In this document: positions 29,983 through 60,165 of the stretch, piece by piece
Layout: the number at the start of each line of letters is the position of its first letter
Position numbering within the stretch: position 1 is the stretch's first letter
Assembly: GCA_020692325.1 (NCBI GenBank)
Contig: JAIMKR010000004.1
Coordinates: 108,401 to 172,400, forward strand
Source: Desulfocurvus sp.
Lineage (GTDB): Bacteria > Desulfobacterota > Desulfovibrionia > Desulfovibrionales > Desulfovibrionaceae
Length of the DNA: 64,000 nucleotides
Direction of reading: 5' to 3'
Made by a program: the position numbers and the translations under genes
Notes under the pieces: model-generated
What the model was told of the DNA's origin: nothing
What the model saw: the letters and a program-made list of their open reading frames with translations, nothing else
Databases searched by the model: none

Positions 29983-31364
29983 CGGACGCCCCCGCTCCCC
30001 CGGCGCAACCGCGTTCGACCGCCCCCGTCCATCCGGCCCGCGTCCGGCGCATCCTCGACCGCCCGGAAACGCCCGGTCCCGTGCTCTACTGGATGCACCG
30101 CGAAATGCGCGCCACCGGCAACTGGGCGCTTCTGCACGCGCGGGAGCGGGCCGCCGCCCGCAACCAGCCCCTGGCCGTTGTCTTCTGTCTGGCGGGCGGC
30201 TATCCGCCGGCGGCCATGAGCCACTTCGCCTTCATGATCCACGGTCTCGCGGAAACTGCGCGCACGCTGGCGGCCAAAGGCATCCCCCTCATGGTCCTGC
30301 GCGGCGCCCCCGGCCGCGAGGTGGCCGCCTTCGCCCGCGAAACGCGCGCCGGCCTCGTGGTGACCGACGCCGACCCCACAAAGCCCAAACGCGCCTGGCT
30401 GGCCGATCTGCTCGCCGACGCGGACTGCCCGGTGGAGGAAGTGGACGCGCGCAACGTCGTCCCCGCCCGGCTGGTCTCGCCAAAAGCCGAGGTCATGGCC
30501 CGCACCCTGCGACCCAAAATCCAACGCCTGCTGCCGGAATTCCTCACGCCCTTCCCGGAGCTCACGCCCCAGGACGCACCCTGGCCGGGCCCCGCGCCCC
30601 GCACCGACTGGCCCGCCCTGCTCGCCGAGTTCAGCACGCCGCAGCCTTCCTTCCCGCCCGGCGCGACCATGGCCGCGGCCACCCTCGAAAACTTTCTGCG
30701 CGAAGGTCTGCCCCGCTACGCCGACGCCCGCAACAGTCCCCTGGAGCCGGCCGGATCGCGCCTGTCCCCATATCTGCACTTCGGGCAGCTCTCCGCCCAA
30801 ACGGTCGCGCTGCGGGTTCTCGCCGCCAACGCCCCTGTCGAGGCGCGCACAGCCTTTCTGGAACAACTCATCGTGCGGCGCGAGCTGGCTGAAAACTTCT
30901 GCCTTTACGTTCCGCATTACGACACCATCGACGCCTTTCCCGCCTGGGCCAAAGCCACTCTGGGCAAACACGCGACCGACACCCGCGCCGTTTTGCCCGA
31001 CGACCAGCTGGAGGCCGGCGAGACGCCCGATCCGCTCTGGAACGCCGCTCAACGGCAACTTCTCGCCACAGGGCACATGCACGGCTGGCTGCGCATGTAC
31101 TGGGCCAAGCAGCTGCTCCCGTGGTCGCGCGACGCCGAAACCGCCCTGGCCCGCGTGCTACGCCTGAACGACTCGCTCTCCCTCGACGGACGCGACGTGA
31201 ACGGTTACGCCGGCGCGGCCTGGAGCATCGGCGGCGTCCACGACCGCCCCTGGCCGGAACGGCGCGTGTTCGGCTGCGTGCGCTCCATGACCGCCAGCGG
31301 AGCGACGCGCAAATTCAACGTCCGCGCCTTCGTCGAACGCTGGACCCGACCCAGCCTGATTTAG
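29979..31364 (+). CDS. phr: Class II deoxyribodipyrimidine photolyase
   Basis: A 461-residue light-dependent DNA repair enzyme that splits cyclobutane pyrimidine dimers using FAD. Class II features: YWMHREMRATGNWALLHA near residue 37, SRLSPYLHFGQLSAQ, MHGWLRMYWAKQLLPWS and LDGRDVNGYAGAAWSIGGVHD near the C-terminus. An N-terminal extension of about 30 residues (Pro/Ala-rich) precedes the photolyase domain. The ATG overlaps the preceding stop (ATGA). A photolyase in an apparently anaerobic lineage suggests exposure to light in shallow or surface habitats. It is followed by a repeat-rich convergent region. Confidence 0.93.
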   Translation: MTDAPAPPAQPRSTAPVHPARVRRILDRPETPGPVLYWMHREMRATGNWALLHARERAAARNQPLAVVFCLAGGYPPAAMSHFAFMIHGLAETARTLAAKGIPLMVLRGAPGREVAAFARETRAGLVVTDADPTKPKRAWLADLLADADCPVEEVDARNVVPARLVSPKAEVMARTLRPKIQRLLPEFLTPFPELTPQDAPWPGPAPRTDWPALLAEFSTPQPSFPPGATMAAATLENFLREGLPRYADARNSPLEPAGSRLSPYLHFGQLSAQTVALRVLAANAPVEARTAFLEQLIVRRELAENFCLYVPHYDTIDAFPAWAKATLGKHATDTRAVLPDDQLEAGETPDPLWNAAQRQLLATGHMHGWLRMYWAKQLLPWSRDAETALARVLRLNDSLSLDGRDVNGYAGAAWSIGGVHDRPWPERRVFGCVRSMTASGATRKFNVRAFVERWTRPSLI

Positions 31365-31384
31365 GCGGAGGGAATCGGCATTGA

Positions 31385-31468
31385 CGAAAGAAGCGGAGGG
31401 AAACCTTTCCGCTGGAAAGGTTCTCCCCCCGCACCCCCCTTCCAAAGGCTTTTAAAGGTGGCACGGGC
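31385..31468 (-). repeat. Dispersed hairpin repeat R1, copy b
   Basis: AAACCTTTCC (31401-31410), GCT, GGAAAGGTT (31414-31422). The TCCAAAGGCTTTTAAAGGTG block at 31441-31460 is the reverse complement of the left flank of copies a and d. Same family, inverted orientation. Confidence 0.8.
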
Positions 31469-31614
31469 AGGCCGGGGTTTCTCCGCCATGCTTCGGATGT
31501 CGTCGCAACGCCTCATCACGCCATCGGCACGTTTGGACGTTGCCGCGTCCCCGCCGATTTCCTCGCCGATTGACTCGCCCGCGCGGCATGTTTCCCCGCC
31601 GTGAGGTCGTGGTT

Positions 31615-31668
31615 TGGGTATGCCTCCGGCAGCCAGGGGGCTGCGCGCCCCCTGAACCCTGCGTGAAG
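31615..31668 (+). repeat. R3-type hairpin module
   Basis: TGCCTCCGGCAGCC leads into hairpin AGGGGGC-TGCG-CGCCCCCT and then GAACCCTGCGTGAAG. The same module occurs inverted at about 59821-59886 and in changed form at 54835-54880. Confidence 0.65.
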
Positions 31669-31737
31669 AAAAGACGTCACTCGCTCAGTCGCACGTGACG
31701 TTTTCCTTTCGCCGACGCATTTTGAACCCGCACTTGT

Positions 31738-31862
31738 CGGGGATGTTTCCCGCCGGCCTCGCGGCGGCGAACATCCCCGAATGTGGGATTCCAAAGGGCA
31801 AACGCCCTTTGGCGGGGTTCCAGGGGCAGCGCCCCTGAGTGGGGCCCGGGGGGGGGCCCCGA
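31738..31862 (+). repeat. Composite multi-hairpin element R2, copy 1
   Basis: Hairpins in order: H1 CGGGGATGTT (31738-31747) with AACATCCCCG (31770-31779); H2 CCAAAGGGC (31791-31799) with GCCCTTTGG (31804-31812); H3 CAGGGGC (31821-31827) with GCCCCTG (31831-31837); then a GC-only fourth dyad. Between H1 and H2 lies the conserved AATGTGGGATT. Confidence 0.8.
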
Positions 31863-31967
31863 TTGATTCACGGGCGAAACCCCAGATATTCAACGCTGCG
31901 GAACCTGACCGACTCGAATTTTAACGCCAAGGACCAGGACTTGAGCCGCACGACTCGCAGGCACTGG

Positions 31968-32072
31968 CCGCGTGGGCGTGAGCCCGCGCGGTTATGGGAT
32001 TCCAAAGGGCGAATGCCCTTTGGCGGGGTTCCAGGGGCAGCGCCCCTGAGTGGGGTCCGGGGCGACGCCCCG
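31968..32072 (+). repeat. Composite multi-hairpin element R2, copy 2
   Basis: H1 CCGCGTGGGC (31968-31977) pairs with GCCCGCGCGG (31982-31991) with one G-T pair. H2 CCAAAGGGC (32002-32010), loop GAAT, GCCCTTTGG (32015-32023). H3 CAGGGGC (32032-32038) with GCCCCTG (32042-32048). H4 CGGGGC (32058-32063) with GCCCCG (32067-32072). H2 and H3 are nearly identical to copy 1 while H1 differs but still pairs. Confidence 0.8.
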
Positions 32073-32111
32073 ATAAAAGGACAAGGACAATCCCGGCAGG
32101 GCTTCACTGGT

Positions 32112-35057
32112 CTACCAGGCCACGGGCAGACGGGCCTTTTGCCCGGCCTTGTTCTGGAAGAGCACGTAACGTTTCTCGCGACCAAAGAGGTACAGATCGC
32201 GGGTGACGGCGACGTCCTGGCGGCAGTATTTGGTGATTTCGTCGAGTTTGCCCTCGGTCCACCATTTGAGGGCGAGGAGGCCGTCGGCGCTTTTGCCGAC
32301 GCCGAGGGTGGCCTGGGCGAGGTTGTCGAGCTTGAGACGGTACCCCAGACGCTCGTGCACGCGCAGCAGCAGGTCGAGGGTGGGCAGATTCCGCCAGGGG
32401 AAGGGATGGATGCCCGCCAGCACGCCATAGTCGAAACGCATGATGTTGAAACCGACGACGAGGTCCATTTCGCGCAAGCGCTCGGCCAGGGCGGGAATTT
32501 CGTGCTCCTCGTAATCCACGAACTCGTCGCGGCCGGAATCGTAGAGCACGGCGATGCTGACACCCATGAGGTCCGCCCGGTTCCAGCCGCCGACCTCGGC
32601 GGCGCTGCGCCGCGTCTCCACGTCCACCACGCCGAAGCGCTTGGGCACGATGAGGGCGGGGCCGGATTCCCCGGCGGCGGACGATGCACCGAACGTCGGC
32701 TTCGCGTCCACGACGGCCTCCTGGTTTGGCTGGGGGTCGGCCGGGGAGATTTTGGGGGCGATGTCCGGTCCAGGCTGCCCGGTGACGAGGCGCCGCAGGA
32801 GGAAGAGGGCGGCGGCCTTGTCGATGGGCCGGTTGCCGCTGCCGCATTTGGGCGAATGCACGCAGGAAGGGCAGCCGAGTTCGCAGGGGCAGTCGCGCAC
32901 CACGGCGAGGGTGCGCTCGAGGAGCTCCTCGGCGCGGGCGTAGGCCTCGCGGGTGAGGCCGGCTCCGCCGGGCATTCCATCGTAGATGAACACGGCGGAG
33001 CCGCCGGTCTGCGGATGCAGGGGAATGGAGATGCCACCCAGGTCGTTGCGGTCGGTAAGCACGAGCAAGGGCAGGATGCCTATGGCCGCGTGCTCCAGGG
33101 CGTGGATACCGCCCATGAAATGCAGATATTCGGCCTCGGCGGCATGACGGGCGTCGTCGGGCACGTCCAGCCACATGCCCTCGGTGACGAAGACGGCGGG
33201 CGGCATGTCCAGCGGCATCATGCCCAGCAGCGTGCCCCCCTTTGTGCTGCGTTTTTCGAAGCCGGTAATGTGCTCGGTGACGCGGAGCTTGGCGCGGGTG
33301 AAGCGGGTGCCCAGCACCACGCGCCGGTCGTAGACCTCCAGGATCTCCGTCTCCTTGCTGCTGCGCACGCGGGTGTAATAGCCCACGCGCGCGGCGCGCG
33401 CCTTGACCGTGCGGCCGGGCAGATCGAGGCTTTCGATGAGGTACGTGCGGCCCCGATGCAGATACACCGCGCCCGGGTGCGTCTCGCGGCAGGCGCGCAG
33501 GGTGTCCACCGCGCCGATGACCTCGCCGGTTGCGGCGTCCTCGATGGCGATCTGCGCGCCCGCGCCACGCAGGTCCACGTCGCGCTGGGGGCGCTTGCGC
33601 GGCGAGAGCACCTCGCGGCCGTCCTCGCTTTTGAGCAGCTCACCCTTGTCGAGGAGTTCGGCCAGAGCCTCGCGCGCACCGGGGGAATCGAGATAGGGCT
33701 CGCCCTGGCCGGAGATGTCCAGTGGCAGCTCCGAGGCGGCGCAGACGAGGTGTCGCGGCAGAATGACCGGATTGGCCGGGTTGAGCACGGCGTTTTCCGG
33801 CGGCCGGGCGAAAAAGTCCTCGGGATGACGCATGAAGAACTGGTCCAGCGCGTCCTCCTGGGCGACGAGCACCACGGCGCTCTCCTGCCGGGCCCGGCCC
33901 ACGCGGCCACCACGCTGCAGGGTGGCCATGACGCTGCCGGGGTAGCCCACGAGGATGCACACGTCGAGGCCGCCGATGTCGATGCCCAGTTCCAGCGCGC
34001 TGGTGCTGATGACCGCCAGCAGCTCTCCCGAGGCCATGCGCGCCTCGATCTCTCGGCGTTCCTCCGGCAGGAAGCCCGCGCGGTAGGCGCTGATCTTGTC
34101 CTTGTACTTGCCGCTTTTCTCACTGGCCCACAGGGCGATGAGTTCGGTCATGCGCCGGCTTTGGGCGTAGACGATGGTCTTGAGCCCGCGCGAAAGCGCT
34201 CCCCGCAACAGCTGGATGGCAGCGCTGGCCGGACTGTCCTCCGGGTTGAGGAAGACCATGTGCCGTGCGCCCGCTGGCGCGCCGCTCTCGATGACGGGCG
34301 TGGCGTCGAGCCCCGTGAGCATGTGGCAGAGTTCCGCCGGATTGCCCACCGTGGCGGAGCAGAACACGTAGGACGGGTCGGACCCGTAATAGCGGCAGAT
34401 GCGCGCGAAGCGCCGCAGCACCTGGCTCATGTGCGCGCCCATCACCCCGCGATAGGTATGCACCTCGTCGAGCACCACGTGGGTGAGGGTGGCGAAGACC
34501 TGCGCCCAGGTGCCATGATGCGGCAGCATGGAAAGGTGCAGCATCTCCGGGTTGGTGAGCAGCAGGTTGGGCGGATGCTTGCGGATTTTGGCGCGCTGCG
34601 AGGGCTTGGTGTCGCCGTCGTAGATGGCGGCGGTGGGCCGGCGCGCCTCGGGCACGGCGGTCAGGCCGTCCACGAGTTCGTTGAAGCCGCGCAGCTGGTC
34701 CTGGGCCAGGGCCTTGAGCGGATAGACCGCGATGGCGCGGCTGTCGGGGTTGGCGAGCACCGCCTCGATGATCGGCAGCTGGAAGGCGAAGGTCTTGCCG
34801 CTGGCTGTGGGGGTGGCCACCACAACGTGCCGGCCGGAGCTCACGATGTCCGCCGCGAGGGATTGATGGCTGTAGAGGTCGTCGATGCCGCGCGCGGCGA
34901 GCATCTCGCGGATGGCGCGGGGCCAGGGCCGGTGGGGCTCGGCGTATTGGGCCTCGTGCCCGGGGATGAGCCTGTGGTGGCACACCTGCCGGCCCAGGCG
35001 ATCGCTGGCTAAAAGCGCGGCGATGAATTCGGCGACGTTCGATGAGGCTTCCGACAT
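32112..35057 (-). CDS. DEAD/DEAH helicase with DUF1998 zinc domain fused to DEDD exonuclease-like domain (MrfA-MrfB fusion)
   Basis: A 981-residue protein. Residues about 40-460 form a superfamily 2 helicase: Walker A ATPTASGKT (81-89), DEVH (197-200), SAT, and motif VI QRGGRVGRARQ. A DUF1998-type region follows with the four-cysteine CPCELGCPSCVHSPKC cluster (about 722-740), the layout of YprA/MrfA. After a linker comes an RNase H-fold domain (about 805-975) with DxE in VVDVET, FD in NIMRFDYG and YCRQD, the DEDDy exonuclease pattern of YprB/MrfB. In Bacillus subtilis MrfA and MrfB are separate and repair mitomycin C damage; here they are one chain. An equivalent DNA repair role is inferred. 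Confidence 0.9.
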   Translation of the reverse strand: MSEASSNVAEFIAALLASDRLGRQVCHHRLIPGHEAQYAEPHRPWPRAIREMLAARGIDDLYSHQSLAADIVSSGRHVVVATPTASGKTFAFQLPIIEAVLANPDSRAIAVYPLKALAQDQLRGFNELVDGLTAVPEARRPTAAIYDGDTKPSQRAKIRKHPPNLLLTNPEMLHLSMLPHHGTWAQVFATLTHVVLDEVHTYRGVMGAHMSQVLRRFARICRYYGSDPSYVFCSATVGNPAELCHMLTGLDATPVIESGAPAGARHMVFLNPEDSPASAAIQLLRGALSRGLKTIVYAQSRRMTELIALWASEKSGKYKDKISAYRAGFLPEERREIEARMASGELLAVISTSALELGIDIGGLDVCILVGYPGSVMATLQRGGRVGRARQESAVVLVAQEDALDQFFMRHPEDFFARPPENAVLNPANPVILPRHLVCAASELPLDISGQGEPYLDSPGAREALAELLDKGELLKSEDGREVLSPRKRPQRDVDLRGAGAQIAIEDAATGEVIGAVDTLRACRETHPGAVYLHRGRTYLIESLDLPGRTVKARAARVGYYTRVRSSKETEILEVYDRRVVLGTRFTRAKLRVTEHITGFEKRSTKGGTLLGMMPLDMPPAVFVTEGMWLDVPDDARHAAEAEYLHFMGGIHALEHAAIGILPLLVLTDRNDLGGISIPLHPQTGGSAVFIYDGMPGGAGLTREAYARAEELLERTLAVVRDCPCELGCPSCVHSPKCGSGNRPIDKAAALFLLRRLVTGQPGPDIAPKISPADPQPNQEAVVDAKPTFGASSAAGESGPALIVPKRFGVVDVETRRSAAEVGGWNRADLMGVSIAVLYDSGRDEFVDYEEHEIPALAERLREMDLVVGFNIMRFDYGVLAGIHPFPWRNLPTLDLLLRVHERLGYRLKLDNLAQATLGVGKSADGLLALKWWTEGKLDEITKYCRQDVAVTRDLYLFGREKRYVLFQNKAGQKARLPVAW

Positions 35058-42135: not shown

Positions 42136-42210
42136 GGGGAGAAACCTTTCCGCTGGAAAGGTTCTCCCCCCGAGCCCCCCTTCCAAAGGCTTTTACAGGT
42201 GACACGGGCA
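42136..42210 (-). repeat. Dispersed hairpin repeat R1, copy c
   Basis: AAACCTTTCC (42142-42151), GCT, GGAAAGGTT (42155-42163), then CTCCCCCCG and TTCCAAAGGCTTTTACAGGT (42181-42200). Near-identical to copy b over about 65 bases, same orientation. Confidence 0.85.
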
Positions 42211-42278: not shown

Positions 42279-42408
42279 CCGGGTGAAACGCCTCGGGACG
42301 CGTCCGCGTCCAGGGGCGTTTCACCCGGCCTAAGGAGTCCAGAGGACGAATGTCCTCTGGCGGGGTCCGGGGCTGGCCCCGGCGGGGGCTCGGGGGCGGA
42401 GCCCCCCT
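42279..42408 (+). repeat. Composite multi-hairpin element R2, copy 3 (diverged stems)
   Basis: H1 is a 16-bp stem: CCGGGTGAAACGCCTC (42279-42294) with GGGGCGTTTCACCCGG (42313-42328). H2 CCAGAGGAC (42339-42347), loop GAAT, GTCCTCTGG (42352-42360). H3 CCGGGGC (42367-42373) with GCCCCGG (42376-42382). A GGGGGCTC/GAGCCCCC dyad follows. The order and the GAAT loop match copies 1, 2 and 4, but the stem sequences differ with pairing kept. Confidence 0.75.
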
Positions 42409-42565: not shown

Positions 42566-43771
42566 ATGCCCACTCCATTTCCCGCATTTCAGCGCGACCA
42601 GAAGGGCCGTATCACAGAACGCAGTTTGAACCTCGGCGGCGAGGCCGAGACCCGACGCTACGCCTACGATTCCGCCGGCCGCCTGACCCGCGTCACCGAC
42701 GGCCTGGGCAACCTGCTGGAATCGTATCTGTACGACGGCGAAGGCCGCCGCCTCGCGGACATCAACCCGCGGCGTTTTCGCGGCGAACGGCGCTACACGT
42801 ATGGCCTGGACGACCGGCTGTTGCAGGCTGGTCGCGTTCAGTTCGACCATGATCGCGCGGGATTCCGTAACCTGAGAGTCGATGACGCGGGATTGAATCC
42901 GCGCGAGACGCGTTACCTCTACGAGCCTTCGGGCCTGCTGCTGGCGGTGGATATGCCCGGCGGCGAGCGCATCGAATACGCTTACGATTCCAATGGGCTG
43001 CGGCGTGAAAAACGCATCGACGGCGGGCTCGTGGAGGCCTTCGAGTGGCTGGACGCGCTGCGCTTGCGGGAATTTTTTGACGGCGAGCGCTGGTGGCGGC
43101 TGGTGTACGATCCGGCGCGCCCGGGCCGCACGCCCATCGGCGTGACCGACGGCGAGGCGTCCTTTCTCATTTCTTCCGATCACCTGGGCACGCCGCGCGC
43201 CCTTGCCGACATGGACGGAAACGTTGTACAGACGATGCGGTACGACGCCTTCGGCAACCCGCTGCGGGGGATTCAGGGGCCTGTGCGGCTCCCCCTTGGC
43301 TTCGCGGGCGGGCTTTTCGACGCCGATACCGGGCTGACGCGCTTCGTCTGGCGGGACTATGACGCCGACACGGGGCGCTTCACCGCGCTCGACCCCATGG
43401 GCGTGAAGGGCGGCGACAAGGACCTCTACGGCTACTGCGTCGATGATCCGGTCAATCGGCTGGACGCGTGGGGGCTAGAGAGCAAGACGGCTCAGAATGG
43501 CTCCACGGGGAACGGGGATGAGGAGCCAGCAAAAGCTGCTGGCAAGCACATCGTGGGCAACGGGATCAAAAGCGCACTGTGGAATGCCGCCAGCGTATAC
43601 CGCACTGAGGGCATGGCTGCTGCTGCAGCACGTGGAGCACTCGGTCTCGGGACGGGGATGATTTTAGGAACCATGCTGGAATCCCCCCCGGTTAAAGAAA
43701 AGGTGAACCAGGCCATTACATGGTTCGAAGACAACTATAAACAAACTGATGATGGCACGATGCAGGATTAA
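42566..43771 (+). CDS. Small RHS-repeat protein with variable C-terminal tip
   Basis: A 401-residue RHS protein. It has YD-repeats (RRYAYDSAGRLTRVTDGLGN, YLYDGEGRR, IEYAYDSNG) and the RHS core end (DHLGTPRALADMDGNVV, YDAFGNPL, FVWRDYDADTGRFTALDP, DKDLYGYCVDDPVNRLDAWGL). A tip of about 94 residues (about 308-401) follows, with a glycine- and alanine-rich stretch (about 355-375) and LESPPVKEKV. AGGAG lies five bases before the ATG at 42566. Full RHS toxins are usually over 1000 residues, so this is a minimal core. The tip is related to that of the displaced copy at 44040-44531 (shared LExPPV). A small two-helix membrane gene follows two bases later, as immunity genes do. Confidence 0.85.
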   Translation: MPTPFPAFQRDQKGRITERSLNLGGEAETRRYAYDSAGRLTRVTDGLGNLLESYLYDGEGRRLADINPRRFRGERRYTYGLDDRLLQAGRVQFDHDRAGFRNLRVDDAGLNPRETRYLYEPSGLLLAVDMPGGERIEYAYDSNGLRREKRIDGGLVEAFEWLDALRLREFFDGERWWRLVYDPARPGRTPIGVTDGEASFLISSDHLGTPRALADMDGNVVQTMRYDAFGNPLRGIQGPVRLPLGFAGGLFDADTGLTRFVWRDYDADTGRFTALDPMGVKGGDKDLYGYCVDDPVNRLDAWGLESKTAQNGSTGNGDEEPAKAAGKHIVGNGIKSALWNAASVYRTEGMAAAAARGALGLGTGMILGTMLESPPVKEKVNQAITWFEDNYKQTDDGTMQD

Positions 43772-54726: not shown

Positions 54727-54841
54727 GCGCATATGGGAAGCGAGGCCTTTCCTTACACAGGGTTCCAAGGGGCGGAGGCCCCTTGGCCTGCGGAGCATGT
54801 CCGCCCGCCACCTTGCCGTGGTGGTTGGATGACGCCTTCGG
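54727..54841 (+). repeat. R3 repeat unit, copy 1
   Basis: Starts GCGCATATGGGAAGCGAGG, contains hairpin CCAAGGGGC-GGAG-GCCCCTTGG and CCTGCGGAGCATGTC, then CCACCTTGCCGTGGTGG and ends at CTTCGG. Copy 2 is an exact-order direct repeat 146 bases downstream. Confidence 0.85.
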
Positions 54842-54872: not shown

Positions 54873-54987
54873 GCGCATATGGGAAGCGAGGCCTTTCCTT
54901 GAACAGGGTCCCAAGGGGCGAAGGCCCCTTGGCCTGCGGAGCATGTCCCTCCGCCACCTTGCCGTGGTGATTGAATGATGCCCTCGG
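54873..54987 (+). repeat. R3 repeat unit, copy 2
   Basis: Same 115-base unit as copy 1 with scattered substitutions; hairpin loop is GAAG instead of GGAG. Between the units is a separate hairpin, AGGGGGC-TACG-CGCCCCC (54847-54864). A third, inverted copy is at about 59904-59990. Confidence 0.85.
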
Positions 54988-58653: not shown

Positions 58654-59628
58654 GTGGCAGCGGCCGTCGCGCCCCTCACGCTGTCCGTGCTCTGGCACGG
58701 CCTCACCATCCCGCTCTCGCGCATGCTGTTCTCCGTGAGCATTGGCCTGTTCGTGGGCACGCTCATCGAGGCCCTGCAGTGGACACGCGGCGTGGCCAAG
58801 ATCGCACAACCCCTGGTGCGCCTGGGACGCCTGAAGGATGTGGCCGGCGCCAGCTTCTCCCTGGCGTTTTTCTCCGGCGCGGCCGCCAACACCATGCTTT
58901 CCGACGCTTACGAGCGCGGCGAAATCTCTAAACGCGAGGTGATGCTCTCCAACCTCTTCAACAGTCTGCCCACCTACTTCCTCCACCTGCCTACGCTGTT
59001 CTTCATCGCCGCGCCGTTCATCGGACCAGCCGCCGCACTGTATGTGAGCCTCACCGTGGCCGCCGCGTTCCTGCGCACACTGGCCATCATTCTGCTCGGC
59101 CGGTTCACCCTGCCGCCCCTGCCGAAAGGCTGCGTCGCCTGCCTGCTCGGCGAGGACAAGCGCTTCAACTGGCGCAATGCGCTGGAAAAGACCTGGAAGC
59201 GCTTCAAACGCCGGCTGCCGCGCATGATCTTCTACACCATCCCCATCTACGTGCTGTTCTTCTTCCTCAAGCGCTGGGGCGCGTTCGACGCCATGGAAGA
59301 CTACATGGCCCACCACGTGGCCTTCCTCTCCTGGCTGCCACCCCAGGCCATGGGCATCATCGCCTTCCACCTGGCCGCCGAAACAACCGCCGGCTACGCC
59401 GCCGCCGGCGCTCTCGTCGCCACCGGAGGACTCACCACCAAGCAACTCGTCCTCGCCCTGCTCGTCGGCAACATCCTCTCCTCGCCCGTGCGCGCCGTGC
59501 GCCACCAGTTTCCGTACTACGCCGGCATCTTCAAGCCCGCGCTCGCCCTCAACCTCATCATCTCCAACCAGGCCATGCGCGCCTCCAGCATCGCCCTCAT
59601 CACCCTCTGCTACGCCCTCTGGGGCTAA
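58654..59628 (+). CDS. Membrane protein of the nucleoside-recognition (Gate) family
   Basis: A 324-residue polytopic protein with about eight hydrophobic segments. It has the Gate-domain pattern (FSGAAANTMLSDAYERGEISKREVML, FNSLPTYFLHLPTLFF; second half GGLTTKQLVLALLVGNILSSPVR), in two halves related to each other. GTG start three bases after the panB stop, so translationally coupled. Family members occur in spore maturation proteins and transporters; substrate here unknown. Link to pantothenate transport is only positional. Confidence 0.8.
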   Translation: MAAAVAPLTLSVLWHGLTIPLSRMLFSVSIGLFVGTLIEALQWTRGVAKIAQPLVRLGRLKDVAGASFSLAFFSGAAANTMLSDAYERGEISKREVMLSNLFNSLPTYFLHLPTLFFIAAPFIGPAAALYVSLTVAAAFLRTLAIILLGRFTLPPLPKGCVACLLGEDKRFNWRNALEKTWKRFKRRLPRMIFYTIPIYVLFFFLKRWGAFDAMEDYMAHHVAFLSWLPPQAMGIIAFHLAAETTAGYAAAGALVATGGLTTKQLVLALLVGNILSSPVRAVRHQFPYYAGIFKPALALNLIISNQAMRASSIALITLCYALWG

Positions 59629-59648: not shown

Positions 59649-59760
59649 CCTGGGATCATCCCAGGGGTTCCGCCCCTGGACCCCGCCAAAGGGCATTCGC
59701 CCTTTGGAATCCCACATTCTGGGCTGTTTGCCGCCGCGAAGCCGTCGGCAAACAGCCCAG
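59649..59760 (-). repeat. Composite multi-hairpin element R2, copy 4 (inverted)
   Basis: H1 is a 15-bp stem: CTGGGCTGTTTGCCG (59719-59733) with CGGCAAACAGCCCAG (59746-59760). H2 CCAAAGGGC (59686-59694), GCCCTTTGG (59699-59707). H3 CCAGGGG (59661-59667) with CCCCTGG (59673-59679). On the minus strand the order and the AATGTGGGATT link match copy 1. Confidence 0.8.
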
Positions 59761-59820
59761 ACAGGTGCGGATTCTCTTGGCATCGACGAGAGCGAAACGC
59801 CGCACGCAGCAAAGAGAGGG

Positions 59821-59903: not shown

Positions 59904-59990
59904 GGGACATGCTCCGCAGGCCAAGGGGCATCCGCCCCTTGGGACCCTGTTCAAGGAAAGGCCACGCTTTCCATATGCGCGGGGTTCCAG
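59904..59990 (-). repeat. R3 repeat unit, copy 3 (inverted)
   Basis: CATGCTCCGCAGGCC, then hairpin CCAAGGGGC-ATCC-GCCCCTTGG, then CCTGTTCAAGGAAAGGCC and CCATATGCGCGG: the reverse complement of the unit at 54727 and 54873. Confidence 0.8.
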
Positions 59991-60093
59991 GGGACGCGTG
60001 GTCCCGGCGGCCGGAGGCATATCCCGGCCGCAACCTCCCGGCAGAGCGCGAAGACGAAATCCCCAATATGGCGATGGAGCCCGGACCTGCCCA

Positions 60094-60165
60094 TGTCACC
60101 TTTAAAAGCCTTTGGGAAAGGGGCGCGGGGGGAGAACCTTTCCGCTCCGCTGGAAAGGTTTCCCT
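60094..60165 (+). repeat. Dispersed hairpin repeat R1, copy d
   Basis: GTCACCTTTAAAAGCCTTTGG then AACCTTTCC (60135-60143) and GGAAAGGTT (60152-60160). The loop is GCTCCGCT, with a 5-base duplication (CCGCT) relative to the other copies. Confidence 0.8.

Follow-up and report, generated by a model that had tools for sequence, protein, structure and literature searches.

Copies in the window and extent of the unit

Covariation between the arms of a hairpin is commonly read as strong evidence of functional RNA. The 64,000-nucleotide stretch of DNA analysed here (the window) carries four copies of an ordered pair of hairpins, H1 and H2, and raises the question of what such sites are and what keeps their arms complementary. 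All four copies described by an earlier, sequence-only reading are present, with arms, links and loops as it gave them, and none of the dinucleotide shuffles folds as well as the copy it was made from (z −4.1 to −5.5). The order of H1 and H2 given by that reading holds, but the extent was under-called, H1 and H2 being one end of a module series of ~335–625 bp (12 full copies; borders approximate).

In the direction of gene A, the gene whose stop codon faces H2, which is opposite to the strand used in the earlier reading, the unit begins with a GGGGC hairpin, followed by H2 (CCAAAGGGC-ATTC-GCCCTTTGG-AATCCC) and then by YATTCG-H1-CGACMGGTGCGG. The core measures 84 nt, with an H2 of 22 nt and an H1 of ~44 nt. 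On the 3′ side of CGACMGGTGCGG there is a degenerate TTCAAAATGCGTCGGCG and then a variable middle, which may contain extra hairpins and a CCGCCGGAGGCAT module. The right-hand end consists of CCCGTGTCACCNNTAAAAGCCTTTGGAAGGGGGG (GTGTCACC..AAAAGCCTTTGGAAGG), then the hairpin GGGGGGAGAACCTTTCC-AGCG-GGAAAGGTTTCCCCCC (the GGGGGAGAACCTTTCC hairpin). H2 and the right-hand module MT were found together in 16 of the 17 MT-bearing intergenic regions, and in all 16 their orientation is alike. The window contains the following parts of the units and the genes facing them (coordinates, strand, feature).

31395-31430, minus: right-hand hairpin module MH of the copy 1 unit, GGGGGGAGAACCTTTCC...GGAAAGGTTTCCCTCC
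31438-31464, minus: right-hand module MT of the copy 1 unit, GTGCCACCTTTAAAAGCCTTTGGAAGG
31728-31739, minus: conserved H1 flank of copy 1, CGACAAGTGCGG (consensus CGACMGGTGCGG)
31737-31780, plus: H1 of copy 1, the variable-arm hairpin
31791-31812, plus: H2 of copy 1, CCAAAGGGC/GCCCTTTGG
31821-31837, plus: GGGGC hairpin (HG) of copy 1, recognised from its sequence
31968-31991, plus: H1 of copy 2, a different, short hairpin
32002-32023, plus: H2 of copy 2
32032-32048, plus: GGGGC hairpin (HG) of copy 2; the convergent helicase gene has its stop ~65 bp away
32112-35057, minus: gene A of copies 1 and 2, an MrfA/HRQ1-like DEAD helicase, stop facing H2
42136-42205, minus: MT and MH modules of the copy 3 unit
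42279-42328, plus: H1 of copy 3
42339-42360, plus: H2 of copy 3, variant CCAGAGGAC/GTCCTCTGG
58654-59628, plus: gene A of copy 4, 324 aa, without a Pfam match at 1e-6, stop facing H2
59686-59707, minus: H2 of copy 4
59718-59761, minus: H1 of copy 4
60093-60119, plus: diverged MT module of the copy 4 unit
1-351, plus: fifth unit, truncated where the window begins, with CGACAGGTGCGG at 3-14, MT at 281-307 and MH at 315-350

The H2 and H1 of the fifth unit lie just outside the window (G000:C27:108324-108413), its H1 partly reading N. Genes flanking the copies in the window are ordinary, including those for a photolyase, the MrfA/HRQ1-like helicase, an aminotransferase and an acyl-CoA dehydrogenase. 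Another repeated hairpin module, CCAAGGGGC-NNNN-GCCCCTTGG, occurs on the minus strand at 54764-54785, 54910-54931 and ~59920-59941; it is part of a longer repeat (GCGCATATGGGAAGCGAGGCCTTTCCTT..CCTGCGGAGCATGTCC), two copies of which are ~146 bp apart.

Family size and distribution

The genome containing the window comprises 3.05 Mb in 27 contigs, and copies were examined through searches and individually retrieved sequence stretches. Allowing ≤3 mismatches, the H2 word GGATTCCAAAGGGCNNNNGCCCTTTGG has 33 matches in this genome as against none for the reversed control, which excludes chance. A covariance-model search, which the earlier reading had recommended, was run with a model built from 19 copies and returned 40 matches in the same genome at the default cut-off; matches were also obtained in 14 of 14 congeners and in two of nine other genera of the bacterial family. 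The 16 genomes tested from other families had none. The H2 word is abundant in one further genus of the bacterial family (G251, G315). The four window copies are members of a dispersed non-coding family with ~40 copies per genome.

Rfam returned no matches on the window at gathering score and none on 31500-32300 at E up to 1, the exact H2 pattern had no match in viral contigs, and a description of the family, sought by organism or sequence in the open-licence literature, was not found. We also considered H2 as a cross-phylum family and rejected this, the few matches in Methylobacterium and Oscillospiraceae being without H1.

Placement behind stop codons

Gene context was derived from a codon-usage gene caller made for this analysis, not from published annotation. 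Random placement, including inside genes, together with a lack of transcripts, had been named by the earlier reading as an observation that would speak against its proposal; no copy was found inside a called gene. Convergent genes flank 21 of the 30 intergenic regions that bear the element in the window's genome, compared to 6 of 62 others (p=7e-9), and divergent regions are depleted both here (2/30 element-bearing versus 19/62 others) and in the congeners (3/81 versus 20/100). Orientation is biased as well, with a gene reading into the H2 side in 28 of 30 first-pass copies, and in the relatives H2 starts a median of 40 nt past the gene-A stop codon. Copy 3 adjoins an RHS/YD-repeat fragment gene (42626-43771) with an uncertain true start, so that its divergent context is uncertain.

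In relatives, 19 of 83 copies have a T-tract past H1 (≥4 T of 7) on the gene-A strand, compared with 0/83 on the opposite strand; among the copies of the window's own genome it was found in 0/21. Among 24 gene ends of the own genome that bear the element, 2 have a canonical terminator within the first 250 nt, as against 18 of 70 other ends (p=0.09). Based on position and on the T-enrichment past H1 in relatives, we infer, less firmly than what follows on the arms, a putative 3′-end role of the units, which is likely rather than proved. The insulator or terminator role offered earlier is upheld to the extent that copies are located where terminators sit; the argument that compensatory change alone indicates selection of a folded molecule is not.

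The same placement would follow if H1 and H2 were terminators or 3′-protecting hairpins with pairing kept purely by RNA selection, acting bidirectionally in convergent pairs and hence showing few wobbles. Like intrinsic terminators, H1 and H2 are strong GC-rich hairpins past stop codons, often between convergent genes, and the short distance to the stop, the strand-specific T-enrichment in relatives and the scarcity of other canonical terminators at element-bearing ends all favour such an origin. Unlike intrinsic terminators, H1 is without a U-tract in all 21 own copies and has one in a minority of relatives' copies. This explanation is further weakened by the mismatches left in H1, which favour the strand opposite gene A even in tandem contexts, and by the predominance of transversion-type double changes and the inverted loops described below, which differ from RNase P RNA. 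We consider it doubtful, while giving it more credit than the other alternatives.

Covariation and substitution pattern of H1

Pairing in H1 is conserved while its sequence drifts, in agreement with the earlier observation that the stems differ yet pair. Double changes affect 13 of 25 pairs in the 19 aligned copies, which contain 59 double-change cells compared to a shuffled mean of 15.5 ± 3.2 (0/500 shuffles) and ≤10 for slid partners; a genome-wide lack of significant covarying pairs, the other outcome that the earlier reading had set against itself, was thus not what was found.

H1 hairpins ≥80% alike were joined in a minimum spanning tree and the changes along it counted; these close pairs yielded 64 double Watson–Crick changes (25 transition-type, 39 transversion-type), together with single changes numbering 7 to G-U, 23 to A-C and 6 other. 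A transversion-type double change cannot go via a wobble pair. RNase P RNA from the same bacterial family, treated identically, gave 57 double changes (37 transition-type to 20) and 49 single G-U, differing from H1 in both pair type (Fisher, p=0.006) and intermediates (p=2e-7), a contrast that is suggestive rather than final because the control structure was itself an alignment-based prediction and divergence is not the same in the two data sets. Measured against a structured RNA under RNA-level selection, with its G-U intermediates and transition-type changes, H1 does not belong (25:39, versus 37:20 for RNase P).

H1 loops additionally occur as reverse complements on similar arms, namely GAA/TTC with an arm identity of 90–95%, AGGAA/TTCCT, and CGAAGC versus GCTTCG or ACTTCG. 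In genome G009, the third hairpin of two 93%-identical copies differs by three compensated pairs, none of them transitions. Several compensations arising at once and loop inversion have been reported as footprints of template switching (PMC8794818). The few G-U intermediates, the transversion-type doubles and the inverted loops together point to template switching between the H1 arms, and arm copying in DNA probably produces most of the H1 covariation. That compensatory change by itself indicates selection for a folded DNA or RNA, as had been proposed, is not supported; the H1 pattern is unlike that of RNase P.

We favour, with moderate confidence, an interpretation of these sites as a composite element of the REPIN/BIME kind without a RAYT (REP-associated Y1 transposase), with arm complementarity that would be maintained mostly by DNA template switching and with units tolerated or serving as 3′ ends. 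The unit, a few hundred bp long, is copied whole and kept almost solely past stop codons, in most cases where two genes converge. The data show how the unit is built, that it disperses and is gained and lost, that it sits at gene 3′ ends in a preferred orientation and that its pairing is conserved. Upon mutation of one H1 arm, a replication template switch at the palindrome would copy the change to the partner arm and at times invert the H1 loop, and such arm copying would leave the stems perfect despite fast sequence drift. The hairpins may act, or be tolerated, as gene-A transcript ends, whether as a roadblock, a terminator or a stop for 3′ exonucleases, with the opposite strand doing so for the convergent gene B.

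Dispersal, gain and loss

Three copies in genome G009 are 88–93% identical over 210–326 bp and lie behind three unrelated genes, the similarity beginning just past the stop codons. These recent unit copies of ~330 bp (L118, L233, L234) are good material for defining unit borders. Presence and absence of the element across species were observed at two gene junctions. The helicase–pentapeptide junction, compared through orthologues of the window helicase and a conserved downstream gene (proteins 63–93% identical), measures 17–24 bp where empty (three species) and 248–259 bp where it holds the element (two species). At the junction of the helicase and a transporter-like gene, two species have the composite with an unrelated H1, their downstream proteins being 95% identical. 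The earlier suggestion to look for copies that appear or vanish was thereby followed between species, and its proposal of a mobile non-autonomous element fits a dispersed repeat with new copies at non-orthologous sites and with presence and absence at orthologous junctions.

Junctions of this kind also bear on a different possibility, that H1 represents unrelated gene terminators beside which a separate repetitive H2 hairpin was inserted, the shared order reflecting insertion preference. Orthologous junctions that keep H2 with a wholly different H1 (for example in G004 and G008) are in its favour, as is an H1 in another genus (L120) that resembles a canonical terminator. In the own genome, on the other hand, H1 has conserved flanks (CATTCG, CGACMGGTGCGG) and a conserved loop, and the recent copies carry H2, H1 and the downstream parts together, making a separate insertion of H2 unlikely.

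Strand bias of the remaining mismatches

Mismatches left in H1 that are A-C on the gene-A strand, and hence G-U on the strand of the earlier reading, prevail in every gene context (47 versus 17). Counting distinct contexts, the bias is 39 versus 16 (p=0.003), tandem contexts included; it is 15 versus 4 after clustering at 60% identity (p=0.02) and no longer significant at 55%. Pure DNA-level correction does not predict strand-biased G-U, and the bias could mean that some weak selection acts on one strand of the element when it folds on itself as RNA or DNA.

A G-U tolerance specific to one strand, whatever the gene context, would also suit a multi-copy structured small RNA made from that strand, with H1 before H2. 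In most cases such an RNA would lie antisense to gene A, the family has no Rfam match, a sigma-70-like promoter sought at 31300-32200 was not found, and the evolutionary pattern is unlike that of RNase P, so that we regard the small RNA as improbable.

Relation to known systems

In REPINs, as described by Bertels and Rainey (2011; PMC3116915), conserved ends enclose a variable spacer hairpin with frequent compensatory changes, and the present family resembles them and REP doublets in being extragenic, multicopy and hairpin-forming, with conserved ends flanking a variable, compensated hairpin. A classical REPIN moved by a RAYT is nonetheless the least credible explanation and was already disfavoured, the shared anatomy and the extragenic, multicopy, copied nature being offset by the finding of a Y1 transposase (PF01797) in 0 of 15 genus genomes, in a search positive in E. 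coli and four other controls, and by a hairpin foot without the constant GTAG/GGAG tetranucleotide. The family differs from REPINs, besides lacking a RAYT in the 15 genomes, in its ~40 copies per genome, its longer oriented series of 335–625 bp and its strict gene-end placement. It looks and works like a REPIN/BIME, yet is not filed as a REPIN because the defining enzyme was sought and not found.

Extracts of PMC12306157 list as REP criteria an extragenic location, palindromic structure, a common consensus and multiple copies, and on these points the family agrees (none in genes, hairpins, a consensus, ~40 copies); the short length of REPs (~14–40 nt) is exceeded by the 84-nt core and the 335–625 bp unit, with single H2 and H1 fitting approximately. 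Like BIMEs and other bacterial stem-loop repeats, as presented in extracts of PMC2267715 and PMC12306157, the family is an intergenic mosaic of several palindromic modules; unlike them, its module order and orientation are fixed, and no match to it was found in those extracts. Several compensations at once and loop inversions are shared with template-switch-maintained hairpins (PMC8794818), studied there in rRNA and other RNA genes, whereas here they occur in dispersed intergenic repeats, with loop inversions in several of ~100 copies.

The family is a natural case in which covariation is very strong and yet, judged by the substitution pattern, DNA replication is its likely source, and it provides a test set for separating replication-made from RNA-selected covariation. 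It also poses the problem of how a REPIN-like unit is copied where RAYT is absent. Tentatively, we propose a genus-specific, RAYT-independent REPIN-like element with arms that may be rewritten fast by template switching, and with strong covariation under little or no RNA selection.

Mirror rule in H2

H2 follows a mirror rule between its leader and arm, as in GGGATT-CC-AAAGGG, GGGAGT-CC-AGAGGG and GGGGTT-CC-AAGGGG (for example at 31785-31812). The words concerned co-vary perfectly in 76 copies, CTTTGG occurring with AATCCC (48) and CTCTGG with ACTCCC (28). As a possible second layer, this rule would be compatible with an intramolecular purine triplex. The triplex was rejected as a necessary cause, a phylum scan having found the words abundant only in this and one related genus. 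Hybrid H2 hairpins keep the link between 3′ arm and tail while their stem is broken, and this, together with the genus-limited words, makes linkage by descent sufficient to explain the mirror rule. At two loci (L098 and L102, both at ~1500), H2 is interrupted by GTCAGCCGTTAG..GTCGACAGCATCGATGGC, extra letters that may represent a small insert in the hairpin.
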